A stretch of DNA of 59,760 nt from positions 1 to 59,760 of the forward strand of contig JARGNZ010000019.1 in assembly GCA_029209985.1 (NCBI GenBank), read 5' to 3'. Below are positions 10,352-55,595 of the stretch, piece by piece (position 1 is the stretch's first letter; every line of letters starts with the position of its first letter). Both the position numbers and the translations under genes were made by a program. The DNA is from Parvibaculaceae bacterium. GTDB taxonomy: Bacteria > Pseudomonadota > Alphaproteobacteria > Parvibaculales > Parvibaculaceae. The notes under the pieces are model-generated. The model did no database searches. It was not told where the DNA came from and saw nothing but the letters and a program-made list of their open reading frames with translations.

Positions 10352-11977
<1,626 letters not shown>

Positions 11978-29708: not shown

Positions 29709-30851
29709 ATGGGCACCGCCTCCACGCATGATACTGAGCTATTGGTGACACCCCTGCATGCGCTCCATGTGGAGCTTGGCGCCAAGATGGTGCCGTTTGC
29801 GGGCTATGACATGCCGGTCCAATATCCCCTAGGCGTCATGGGGGAGCACAACCATACCCGTGAAAAGGCTGGTTTATTTGATGTTTCTCACATGGGCCAA
29901 GCACTTCTTGTTGGCCCCGACCACGAGACAACAGCCGCGGCCCTTGAAGCCCTCACCCCCGGTGATTTCAAAAGTTTAGCCCCCGGCGAAATTCGCTACA
30001 CAGTTCTGCTCAACGAAGAAGGCGGCATTCTGGATGACTTGATGGTGACACGCCATTGGGCAGAGGAAGGCACATTGTTTCTGGTGGTGAATGCAGCGTG
30101 TAAGACGCAAGACTTTGCCCATATCTCAGCCAACCTACCGGATGGAATTCAACTCCAACCCATTACAGACCGCGCCCTCATTGCACTGCAAGGCCCAGAA
30201 GCTGGTGCTATATTTGAAAAGTTTGCCCCTGCAAGTGCACAGCTTATTTTCATGCAAGCCGCCGCCTTGTCTGTTGAAGGTAGCACATGTTTTGTTTCAC
30301 GGTCGGGTTACACCGGCGAAGATGGTTTTGAAATTTCCGTTCCTGCAGCCGATGCTGAAAAAATAAGCCGTGCACTTTTGCAGGTCGACGGCGTTGAAGC
30401 CATTGGCCTTGGCGCGCGTGATAGCTTGCGGTTAGAAGCAGGCCTCTGCCTTTACGGACATGATATCGACACGACCACCACACCGGCAGAAGGTGCCTTG
30501 TTGTGGGCTGTGCCAAAGCGGCGGCGGGCAGAAGCCAATTTCCCCGGCGCAAAAATTATCCTCGACCAGATTGCAAGCGGAGCACCGCGCAAACGCGTTG
30601 GTATTTTGCCGGAAGGCAAAGCGCCTGCACGTGAGGGAACTGAAATTCAATCATCAGACGGAAAGACCATTGGCAAGGTCACCAGTGGTGGCTTTGGGCC
30701 AAGCTTCGGCGGGCCGATTGCAATGGGATATGTGGAAAGCGCCCACGCAAAGATTGGTACGGACATTGTACTGATCGTGCGGGGCAAAGCCCGTCCTGCC
30801 CAAGTCGTCAAAATGCCATTTGTGCCGCAGCGGTATCATCGCGGCCTCTAA
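29709..30851 (+). CDS. gcvT: Glycine cleavage system aminomethyltransferase (T protein)
   Basis: A 380-residue T protein. Visible blocks are LHALHVELGAKMVPFAGYDM (N-terminus with the folate-site region), GLFDVSHMGQALLVGPD, the conserved SRSGYTGEDGFEISVP and GLGARDSLRLEAGLCLYGHD; the C-terminal domain includes GFGPSFGGPIAMGYV. It releases ammonia from the aminomethyl-lipoyl H protein and transfers the methylene to tetrahydrofolate. It is the first gene under the glycine riboswitch. Confidence 0.97.
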   Translation: MGTASTHDTELLVTPLHALHVELGAKMVPFAGYDMPVQYPLGVMGEHNHTREKAGLFDVSHMGQALLVGPDHETTAAALEALTPGDFKSLAPGEIRYTVLLNEEGGILDDLMVTRHWAEEGTLFLVVNAACKTQDFAHISANLPDGIQLQPITDRALIALQGPEAGAIFEKFAPASAQLIFMQAAALSVEGSTCFVSRSGYTGEDGFEISVPAADAEKISRALLQVDGVEAIGLGARDSLRLEAGLCLYGHDIDTTTTPAEGALLWAVPKRRRAEANFPGAKIILDQIASGAPRKRVGILPEGKAPAREGTEIQSSDGKTIGKVTSGGFGPSFGGPIAMGYVESAHAKIGTDIVLIVRGKARPAQVVKMPFVPQRYHRGL

Positions 30852-53231: not shown

Positions 53232-53797
53232 GATTCTGCGATGGGCCAAAGTTTCATGATTCGAAGTTCCTTAGGAAAATCAAACCCTTAATATGTACCG
53301 GCAATGAACAGTCCCAAAATGGCACAGAACGTTAAGATTTAGATCGAGTTTTTATTAAAAACTTCCGACCGAAAATATAAAAAAATATGTTAAAAATCAA
53401 AGGGTTAACACTTTGGGAAAGTCTAGGCAGCGCATTCTATTGTTCCATGCAATAGTTTATGGTATCTCCTCTACGTCCTTCAGAGGAGGCCGCGCTGTTA
53501 ATCTATTCTGCCGCGCCTTCAGGGAAGAAAACCGAGGGGCTCCAAGGGCATATGGCGCATTTGGGTGAAACCGTCAGGTACTCGCCTTAGATGCTCGCCT
53601 CATGCTGGAGTGAAATAGCTCGCGGCCTGTTCTCAAAGGATCGTCACTGATCTGACAGAGAAAAGGCAGGCCGTTGCTTAAACTGGCAACAAAGTTGCGA
53701 GTGAAGAGGGTGACCTCGGCATATGTCTCAGGACGAGACATTTCGCTGTAAAATTGGTTTGTTGAAGCTTGGTTTTTTGAAACAAGGACGGTTGGAC
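53232..53797 (+). other. Long AT-rich leader region before sleB
   Basis: A 566-base stretch without a convincing gene. The first part (53330-53410) is very AT-rich and a plausible promoter zone. Downstream are two small hairpins: CTATTG / CAATAG (53437-53455) and CTCCTCT / AGAGGAG (53466-53488). It may be a long 5' UTR of sleB or hold a small RNA; nothing firmer can be said. Confidence 0.35.
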
Positions 53798-54514
53798 ATG
53801 TTGCCTCGACTGTTACATTGGTTAGACCTACGCGCACCTGTGGCAGAAGCTCTGCACTTGGGTACGGGCTTTGCTGCCTTGGCGGCATTGGCGATCGCTT
53901 TTACAAATGTGCCAACGGCTGAAGGCCAATTGCAGATTGAAGCAGGCAACACCTTGCGCATGACCAGTGAACATGTGGCTCCAAATCAGTTTGAAGATCG
54001 CCCTGTTTCTGTTGCAAGCCTGAACTTTGTTTCCAACGAATACACAACGCCGCAAGCACTGCGCGTGTCAAACTTTGGCGAAGCAGCCTATGAAATGGCA
54101 AAAGAGCGTCGATGCCTTGCAACCGGCATTTATTTTGAAGCCCGCAGCGAGTCCCATTTTGGGCAGGTCGCCGTTGCAAAGGTGATTTTGAACCGTGTCG
54201 CTTCCCAAGATTATCCCAACACCATTTGTGGGGTGGTCTATCAGGGCGCTCATCGTCGCACCGGCTGTCAGTTCTCGTTCACCTGTGACGGCATTTCAGA
54301 CCGTCCAAAAAACAAGCTCTCATGGCGCAAGTCCATGCGCTTGGCTGACTTCATGACGAAGGGCCACACAGCGACACCTGAGCTTGTAGGCGACCGGGTC
54401 TATCACTACCACGCAGATTATGTGGATCCGTATTGGGCCAATAGAGGGCCTTTGCAACGAGTTGTGCAAATCGGCAAACACATTTTCTATTCTCGTGGTG
54501 GCCGCGAAAGCTAA
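53798..54514 (+). CDS. Cell wall hydrolase (SleB family)
   Basis: A 238-residue protein with an N-terminal hydrophobic segment (AEALHLGTGFAALAALAIAF) and a C-terminal Hydrolase_2 (SleB) domain. The catalytic Glu is in CLATGIYFEARSESHFGQVA, followed by VILNRVASQDYPNTICGVVY, CQFSFTCDG and YHYHADYVDPYW. These enzymes cleave peptidoglycan glycan strands; in alphaproteobacteria they act in growth or remodelling rather than spores. The ATG at 53798 has AAGGA nine bases upstream; an earlier in-frame ATG at 53723 would put the hydrophobic segment deeper. A small RNA candidate lies downstream. Confidence 0.92.
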   Translation: MLPRLLHWLDLRAPVAEALHLGTGFAALAALAIAFTNVPTAEGQLQIEAGNTLRMTSEHVAPNQFEDRPVSVASLNFVSNEYTTPQALRVSNFGEAAYEMAKERRCLATGIYFEARSESHFGQVAVAKVILNRVASQDYPNTICGVVYQGAHRRTGCQFSFTCDGISDRPKNKLSWRKSMRLADFMTKGHTATPELVGDRVYHYHADYVDPYWANRGPLQRVVQIGKHIFYSRGGRES

Positions 54515-54576
54515 ACCTTCAAACAGTTTTGCGCTCACGCCCGGTTGATCTACATCCTTATTGTTATGCATCCCCA

Positions 54577-54590
54577 TTGATCTACATCAA
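54577..54590 (+). promoter_or_regulatory. Perfect FNR/FixK-type box
   Basis: TTGAT-CTAC-ATCAA exactly matches the FNR/ANR/FixK consensus. A related partial site, TTGAT-CTAC-ATCCT, lies 32 bases upstream at 54545-54558, three helical turns away. It is in a convergent gap with no annotated gene downstream. Confidence 0.7.
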
Positions 54591-54620
54591 TGAGCTTGCT
54601 CTAGGCTCAGTCCATTCTCC

Positions 54621-54760
54621 ACACTGGATAGTGAAGAAGGTGACGTTCAGTCGCTGTGCTTCTCAATGGCCGACCACCCGGGAGGAGCCGCATCTTCACT
54701 GTCCAGCATGCTCTTAACCAAGCATCAAAGCCCCGACGTGACTTTCACGCCGGGGCTTTT
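54621..54760 (+). ncRNA. Candidate FNR-controlled small RNA
   Basis: A start about 41 bases after the FNR box centre would fall near 54621-54626, with CATTCT (54613-54618) as a weak -10. The predicted RNA begins with CTGGATAGTGAAGA (54624-54637), which pairs over 14 bp (one G-U) with TCTTCACTGTCCAG (54693-54706), and ends at the terminator 54726-54760. Within the loop GTGAC pairs with GTCGC, and a CACCCGGGAGGAGCC stretch is exposed. No protein-coding frame of credible quality is present. All parts are seen; expression and regulation are inferred. Confidence 0.5.
54726..54760. terminator. Bidirectional terminator between sleB side and the SDR gene
   Basis: AAAGCCCCG (from 54727) pairs with CGGGGCTTT, continuing inward with CGTG / CACG after one mismatch; T runs follow on both strands. 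It ends the candidate small RNA on the plus strand and the SDR transcript on the minus strand. Confidence 0.85.
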
Positions 54761-54785
54761 GGTTAGGTTTGCGTTGCGCTTGGAG

Positions 54786-55595
54786 TTAAGCGTCATCTTC
54801 TTTTTGGTTAAGCACGCCTTGCGCTGCAATGCCGTCCCGTGTGCCTTCGGGGTCAAGGGCTGAGGCTTTGTCGAGTTCAGCAATTTCTTCTGGCACAAAC
54901 CAGTGCAAACGATTTGGATCGTCGTGGTAAGACGCCCAAACGGCTTTGGCAATTTCAATCGGTTGGGTGATGCGGAACATGCCTTCTGTTGACGCATTTT
55001 CTGCGGTGCCCTCAGGCAGAATGTTTGTGTCGATCAGACCCGGCAGGGTATCGGCCACACGCACGCCGATGTCGCGGAACTCAATAGAGAGCGCCTCGGT
55101 CAAGCCTTTAACGGCGTGTTTGGTGGCAGAGTAGACAGCAATGCCAGGAATGCCGTAGGTGGCAGATGATGACGAGGTAGAAAAGCAAAGTGAGTTTTCT
55201 GTCGCTTTGAGCATATCAAGCGAGGCGTAAATGCCGTTCAACACACCAATAAGGTTCACGTTGACCAACTGCAGCATTTCTTCGAAAGGCTGTTCTGCAA
55301 AGGGGCCGCCTTTACCAATGCCTGCGTTGTTGAACAGCAGGTCCATCTTTCCACCAGTCGCTTCTGAGAATGCGGCTAAGGACTTTTCAAATCCGGGGCG
55401 GTCCACAACATCCAGTTTGCCTGTAATGCAGTTTTCTGAACCGATTTCCTGCGTCAAAGCTGAAAGCCCAGTGACGTCAACGTCATAAGCGCCCACAAAC
55501 CAGCCGCCTTCGGCAAACAATTTGGCAGTCGCCCGGCCAATGCCGCTTGCGGCACCGGTGATGAAAATGGATTTACGTGATCCAGCACGTGACAT
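54786..55595 (-). CDS. Short-chain dehydrogenase/reductase
   Basis: A 269-residue classical SDR. NAD(P)-binding TGAASGIGRATAKLFAEGG (about residues 13-31), the NNAG motif in DLLFNNAGIGKGG, the catalytic Ser and YxxxK in CFSTSSSSATYGIPGIAVYS then ATKHAVKGL. The acidic residue after the first beta strand (AYDVDV) points to NAD rather than NADP. The C-terminus is Asp/Glu-rich. The substrate is unknown. It lies 45 bases upstream of nadC's stop side and may be the last gene of the nadABC transcript. Confidence 0.9.
   Translation of the reverse strand: MSRAGSRKSIFITGAASGIGRATAKLFAEGGWFVGAYDVDVTGLSALTQEIGSENCITGKLDVVDRPGFEKSLAAFSEATGGKMDLLFNNAGIGKGGPFAEQPFEEMLQLVNVNLIGVLNGIYASLDMLKATENSLCFSTSSSSATYGIPGIAVYSATKHAVKGLTEALSIEFRDIGVRVADTLPGLIDTNILPEGTAENASTEGMFRITQPIEIAKAVWASYHDDPNRLHWFVPEEIAELDKASALDPEGTRDGIAAQGVLNQKEDDA

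Follow-up and report, generated by a model that had tools for sequence, protein, structure and literature searches.

From sequence comparison we conclude that the window, by which we mean the whole stretch of 59,760 nt of Parvibaculaceae DNA analysed here, encodes a new, lineage-restricted, FNR-activated small RNA, whose transcription and response to oxygen we infer. According to the explanation that we favour, and hold with modest confidence, low oxygen would yield active Fe-S FNR, which would start transcription at ~54625 from a class II promoter whose box is centred at -41.5 and whose -10 hexamer lies at 54613-54618; the product would be a non-coding small RNA, ~135 nt long and ending near 54760. 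This RNA would fold to a three-way junction exposing a C-rich loop, UCA(A/U)-N5-GACCACC, and the loop would block translation of target mRNAs, among which fnr is the best candidate, by pairing across their ribosome-binding region and start codon. Pairing at fnr, and perhaps at other mRNAs too, would then lower FNR production in a negative feedback. If this is true, the oxygen sensor limits its own synthesis via an RNA, and through such feedback the classic oxygen switch would gain a further level of control. The RNA family would have its own fold, its own promoter and a linked regulator, in a lineage that includes the named species Tepidicaulis marinus, together with a specific and testable target. 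The features of the locus are, by position:

53723-54514, + strand: cell wall hydrolase gene (PF07486), the syntenic gene upstream of the RNA
54545-54558, + strand: partial FNR-like box TTGATCTACATCCT, 32 nt upstream of the perfect box
54577-54590, + strand: perfect FNR/FixK-type box TTGATCTACATCAA, read in the sequence, with TTGA-N6-TCAA in 10/10 RNA loci
54613-54618, + strand: -10-like hexamer CATTCT, exactly 22 nt after the box
54624-54637, + strand: stem P1, 5' arm (fold; covariation)
54625, + strand: predicted transcription start, from class II geometry (box centre at -41.5)
54639-54655, + strand: hairpin P2, variable (fold)
54656-54691, + strand: hairpin P3 with the conserved loop (fold; covariation)
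54662-54679, + strand: conserved motif CTCAATGGCCGACCACCC, the proposed seed, of which CTCANNGGCCGACCACC is mismatch-free in 10/10 RNA loci
54693-54706, + strand: stem P1, 3' arm (fold)
54727-54761, + strand: hairpin followed by TTTT, which may terminate transcription in both directions (predicted fold)
54786-55595, - strand: short-chain dehydrogenase gene (PF00106), convergent and downstream of the RNA

The locus and its relatives

The window is contig C34 of a source genome (G000) of 3.09 Mb that is 99.8% complete. The hydrolase gene (+) and the dehydrogenase gene (-) face each other across the box and the RNA and are separated by a gap of 271 bp, in agreement with the convergent gap described in an earlier reading of the letters without database searches (hereafter the sequence-only reading). 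That reading also ended the unit at a Rho-independent terminator; here the strong hairpin stood, while the terminator call did not, as only TTTT follows the hairpin, its end lies at ~54761 and a terminator scan made no call. The flanks of this hairpin, AAAGCCCC/GGGGCTTTT, can be read both ways, so that it possibly serves the dehydrogenase gene too. The cytochrome oxidase said to be encoded in the window was found as a COX1 subunit at 10358-11977, which matches PF00115; its assignment to the aa3 type is a reading made both there and by us.

A BLASTN search with 54540-54765 over 61 genomes returned the self-match only, and a related-locus search with the hydrolase as query found nothing. Because BLASTN was blind to the relatives, synteny was needed to find the RNA, and we searched for the hydrolase protein and then read the DNA 3' of its stop codon. 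By this route the RNA was found in nine genomes of two other genera, seven of g3 and two of g4, one of the latter (G004) being T. marinus, which belongs to Parvibaculaceae at NCBI. The RNA lies directly 3' of the hydrolase stop in all ten loci. Loss of both the box and the stem in near relatives had been proposed beforehand as an outcome that would speak against the RNA; all nine genomes keep the box, the -10 spacing, the junction and the loop, in the same place.

A conserved three-way junction

The 14-bp stem proposed in the sequence-only reading is exact, 54624-54637 pairing with 54693-54706 through 13 Watson-Crick pairs and one G-U, and in the window fold this stem, P1, closes a three-way junction that spans 54624-54706. 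On its own strand the window RNA has a folding energy of -39.8 kcal/mol, compared with -23.8 (sd 3.2) for shuffled sequences (z = -5.0; 0/200 shuffles as stable), whereas the reverse strand gives z = -2.0, and the sense strand was more stable than the antisense strand in 4/4 loci tested. The junction and the loop GGCCGACCACCC are retained in all ten genomes. A covariance model (R1), built with the nine relatives as input and the window left out, gave a single match at E <= 10 in the window, at 54627-54704 (+), with 28.4 bits and E = 4e-5. In an alignment of the ten sequences (eight distinct rows), 90.0% of the cells pair and 13 of the 28 pairs have changed on both sides, as against a mean of 7.2 such changes in shuffled alignments, 0/500 of which reached 13; since this alignment was fitted to R1, its counts lean towards the structure. 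With pairing partners slid out of register, paired cells in the same alignment amounted to 34-50%. A MAFFT alignment of the nine relatives that was not fitted to the model had 89.3% of its cells paired (0/500 shuffles) and eight pairs changed on both sides, a count that 57/500 shuffles also reached. The covariance search suggested as a check of the candidate RNA turned out in its favour, with the R1 match in the window and paired changes in the relatives, and by sequence comparison the conserved RNA structure is established.

The conserved block could also be read as coding, with the locus specifying a short peptide, an explanation that we find scarcely credible. Six g3 loci have an ATGACGG frame that runs from the predicted 5' end through the block, but the window lacks an ATG at the start of P1, the paired changes track the helices, and the frame of the block is not conserved between loci (0 in L004-L009, 2 in L003, L010 and L011), for which reason peptide coding was rejected.

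Restriction of the RNA to one lineage

Of 41 genomes searched for the pattern CTCA-NN-GGCCGACCACC, the ten that bear the RNA, and no others, have it free of mismatches; five more, one of them g5, have it with one mismatch only. The search that allowed one mismatch in the loop pattern covered 25 of the 40 family genomes. An order-wide model search, with 112 candidates scored per genome, matched 9 of 40 genomes at E <= 0.001. In the class-wide model search the window's genome scored E = 0.002, so a threshold of E <= 0.001 would miss members as diverged as the window's, and it is with this threshold that 27 g5 and two g2 genomes gave no model match. Thirteen hydrolase loci of g5 and g2 (L012-L024) are devoid of the loop motif and of any box with at most one mismatch, and the one further genome from the window's genus (70% complete) yielded neither the RNA nor FNR.

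Outside the family, three weak matches (E 0.014-0.036) turned up when 289 genomes sampled from the class were searched with the model; we rejected these matches as chance, none having GGCCGACCAC or any TTGA-N6-TCAA box in its ~3-kb locus. Additionally, a motif pattern scan of a contig collection from 84,980 genomes returned 40 stretches; seven have both box and structure, all in genomes already counted, and the other 33 have no box (at most one mismatch) within 200 nt upstream. Judged by these searches the RNA is lineage-restricted, with nothing convincing outside the family in the class sample or in the collection scan.

Promoter geometry

The box called perfect in the sequence-only reading is exact at its position and is the sole perfect TTGAT-N4-ATCAA within the 59,760 bases. 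Its class II spacing was likewise confirmed, since a +1 at 54625 puts the box centre at -41.5 with CATTCT in the -10 region, and the partial copy was found as described, 32 nt before the box. In the relatives L003, L004, L005 and L010, the 60 nt that precede the box lack the 12-nt repeat TTGATCTACATC. A TTGA-N6-TCAA box followed by a YANNNT hexamer at offset 22 is present in 10/10 RNA loci; at the remaining offsets from 10 to 35 the hexamer occurs in zero or one of the ten, except for offset 32 (4/10). In the available text of one article, FNR class II promoters have their site centred at -41.5 (PMC3688515). By sequence, box and hexamer in the RNA loci are spaced as in an FNR class II promoter, with a predicted start site.

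This spacing bears on a further explanation, according to which the structure belongs to the 3' end of the hydrolase mRNA, or to a terminator region used in common, the FNR box being there by chance. It would account for the position of the RNA just past the hydrolase stop in every locus and for the possible bidirectional terminator of the window. However, the -10 spacing is exact in 10/10 loci, a terminator-like hairpin can be seen by eye between the hydrolase gene and the RNA in g4, and the hydrolase loci L012-L024 are without loop motif or box, all of which makes this explanation very improbable.

In the two g4 loci (L010 and L011) an FNR-like box lies ~90 nt before the loop and, by eye, within that terminator-like hairpin; this palindrome may be both terminator and operator in one.

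The regulator and its regulon

FNR is defined by its Fe-S cysteines and its E-SR recognition helix. Exactly one protein of the window's genome passes the HTH_Crp_2 cut-off; it has Crp-type domains in a Pfam scan, a C-x2-C-x7-C pattern, a later cysteine in KLCQLP and an ETVSR helix, and because of the cysteine pattern and ETVSR we read it as an Fe-S FNR. Orthologues of this protein with 55-61% identity are found in exactly the ten RNA-bearing genomes among 40 family genomes. In the other 30, several of which are incomplete (down to 57%), the best match has 32-38% identity in 15 and none is found at E <= 1e-20 in 15. The three RNA-bearing genera are possibly one clade, so the co-occurrence possibly reflects shared descent; it is consistent with a dependence of the RNA on FNR, short of proof. 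A COX1-family gene lies within ~5 kb of fnr in G000 and in G003, where a FixO gene comes next; in our naming it looks like cbb3 ccoN.

FixK, DNR and FNR have a common core site, and the g3 and g4 genomes contain several additional Crp-type proteins. Both points are what one would expect if the conserved RNA were driven by another regulator that binds TTGA-N6-TCAA, of the NO-responsive FixK/DNR type, rather than by the oxygen-sensing FNR. Against this, the single protein past the HTH_Crp_2 cut-off in the window's genome is the one with the Fe-S cysteines, and we give another regulator a very small chance.

The proposed FNR promoter also recurs at other genes. The window's genome has 11 perfect FNR boxes, namely the window's own, three more that are intergenic and seven inside reading frames; YANNNT stands at offset 22 in 3/3 of the other intergenic boxes, compared with 1/14 strand-readings at the intragenic ones. 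The three intergenic boxes precede genes for an amino-acid permease, an AurF-like protein and NnrS. Furthermore, a search of five genomes for the box, N22 and the hexamer gave 25 matches, compared with none for a reversed-pattern control, and recovered the RNA in 5/5; matches that fall inside open frames, or that have no called gene beside them, may be chance. One match precedes the gene of an OmpW porin (L276), confirmed by Pfam (PF03922), and three further ones precede what resembles OmpW by eye (L265, L269 and L277/L280); nnrS and the AurF-like gene likewise follow matches of this search. Since this promoter recurs at other genes, the RNA would belong to an FNR regulon seen in several genera.

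Two observations on these promoters are added here. In L224 (G003:C1, 1000001-1020000) an OmpW gene has a perfect box, TTGATCCGGATCAA, 82 nt upstream of its called start, and GGGGTGGT in its early coding region. In L278 (G018) and L268 (G004) a small exported-looking protein is encoded downstream of an FNR-type promoter, that of L278 being without a Pfam match.

The loop and its candidate target

The invariant loop looks like a sequence complementary to a ribosome-binding site. In G003 the start of fnr, GGGGTGGTCGGGT-ATG, matches the loop complement over 11 nt; the idea of fnr as target is partly post hoc, as fnr was spotted while complement matches in this genome were being read. Against a background of 400 kb of G003 (~11%), taken from evenly spaced stretches, one of which contained fnr by chance, this gene comes first among 355 gene starts (-32.1 kcal/mol, the next being -24.3), and it is still the best when other genes may choose among starts (next-best duplex -25.5 kcal/mol). 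A loop-complementary run of 7-11 nt is present at 10/10 fnr starts. Shuffled controls gave p <= 0.004 for this pairing in six of the seven g3 genomes and p = 0.13 in the seventh (G012), and p = 0.024 and 0.068 in the two g4 genomes. In the window's genome, where about 420 kb (~14%) were sampled as background, the run is 7 nt, the shuffle p is 0.15 and fnr ranks 12th of 359, or 46th if every other gene picks its best start.

A reversed, not complemented, loop was used as a control. It is weaker than the true loop in six g3 genomes, only 1.5 kcal/mol weaker (-14.2 vs -15.7) in the window's genome, equal to it in G012, and better than it in both g4 genomes (-17.9 vs -17.0 and -19.5 vs -17.1). The complement falls partly on the Shine-Dalgarno position, which should be rich in G in any case, and as a whole the complement GGGTGGTCGG was not enriched in six genomes, the reversed control being higher in 6/6.

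In the lowest-energy duplexes, UCAU of the RNA lies on the AUGA of the fnr start in seven of the nine relatives (G007 and G016 having a shifted register), and UCAA lies on UUGA in the window's genome, where the TTG start of fnr is our own reading. This would be one matching change of RNA and start codon and is suggestive only. A bolder version of the proposal, in which the loop is an 'anti-start' of fnr (the complement of its Shine-Dalgarno sequence, spacer and start codon) that has co-changed with the start codon and been co-inherited with FNR in one family, is put forward tentatively, and we would sooner bet against it than for it.

In the main competing explanation FNR still activates the small RNA, but its partners are different mRNAs, such as members of the FNR regulon, or a protein, and fnr matches only as a by-product of a G-rich ribosome-binding site. 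It agrees with the weak pairing at fnr in the window's genome and in g4, and with a loop that is invariant while the fnr sites vary. It also gains from two leaders of the window's genome: that of the AurF-like gene (L135, G000:C16), which has an FNR box and an 11-nt run, TGGTCGGCCAA, complementary to the window loop over 10 nt, and that of nnrS, with 8 nt complementary to the loop. On the other hand, the AurF-like match is missing in the g4 orthologues L171 and L172, although their FNR box is kept, whereas a match at fnr, of one form or another, is found in the ten genomes, and none of the 355 starts sampled in G003 pairs better than fnr. We regard this explanation as rather unlikely. The sequence evidence points first to fnr as the target, rather than to the oxidase of the window. 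Within the proposal that we prefer, action of the RNA by loop pairing is likely; for fnr as its target across the family the chances seem about even, and for fnr in the window's own organism they are lower.

Two sets of candidates were rejected in the course of this comparison. The OmpW, NnrS and AurF-like mRNAs were dropped as conserved targets, the complement not being conserved in the orthologues examined, and GGTGGTC and GTGGTCGG in the early coding sequence of ccoN/ccoO near fnr are probably Val-Gly codons.

Relation to known small RNAs

Enterobacteria provide the best-known cases of small RNAs driven by FNR, and for a regulator repressed by its own small RNA there is a precedent in OmrA/OmrB and ompR. 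FnrS, like the present RNA as proposed, is a small RNA activated directly by FNR; it has an Rfam model, and fnr is not known to be one of its targets. In contrast, the RNA described here has no Rfam match, and its loop pattern together with box and structure was found only in the family described here. The accessible portions of two articles place the FNR site of Escherichia coli FnrS at -42.5 (PMC3688515) and state that FnrS represses many mRNAs without oxygen (PMC8139620).

In alphaproteobacteria, RSs0019 (Pos19) and RSs2461 of Rhodobacter sphaeroides have putative promoter regions in which ChIP placed FnrL (PMC4263372, in part), Pos19 being described as a small-coding member of the RpoE regulon (PMC5036791, in part). 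These two have an FNR-type promoter link, as proposed here, and are likened to our RNA by description. So is PcrZ of the same species, a low-oxygen small RNA dependent on PrrA and FnrL, whose FnrL link is marked 'indirect?' in the table of a review (PMC8139620, in part) and is possibly indirect. In the portions of the literature consulted, the alphaproteobacterial cases of FNR-linked small RNAs are therefore ChIP sites or possibly indirect links. Among open-licence articles, the titles and abstract beginnings of those on FNR/FixK-linked or FnrS/FnrL small RNAs do not mention this RNA, and at the same depth none concerned a small RNA of Tepidicaulis or small RNA feedback onto fnr mRNA.

Lastly, the suggestion of the sequence-only reading that this RNA is not an annotated family was upheld, as no Rfam family matched it in the window or in the relatives searched. 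A search of five loci at E <= 5 (L001, L003, L004, L005 and L010) gave nothing but an ar14 match below threshold, which lies at L001:77-193 and does not touch the RNA, and with the gathering score the whole window gave no match to the RNA and only a glycine riboswitch elsewhere. By these comparisons the RNA is a new family of putatively FNR-activated small RNA, of which the feedback on fnr would be the unusual part. The glycine riboswitch aptamer (RF00504; 29419-29518, +; 69.7 bits) is an ordinary one and lies ahead of a reading frame at 29709, which we take to resemble gcvT.
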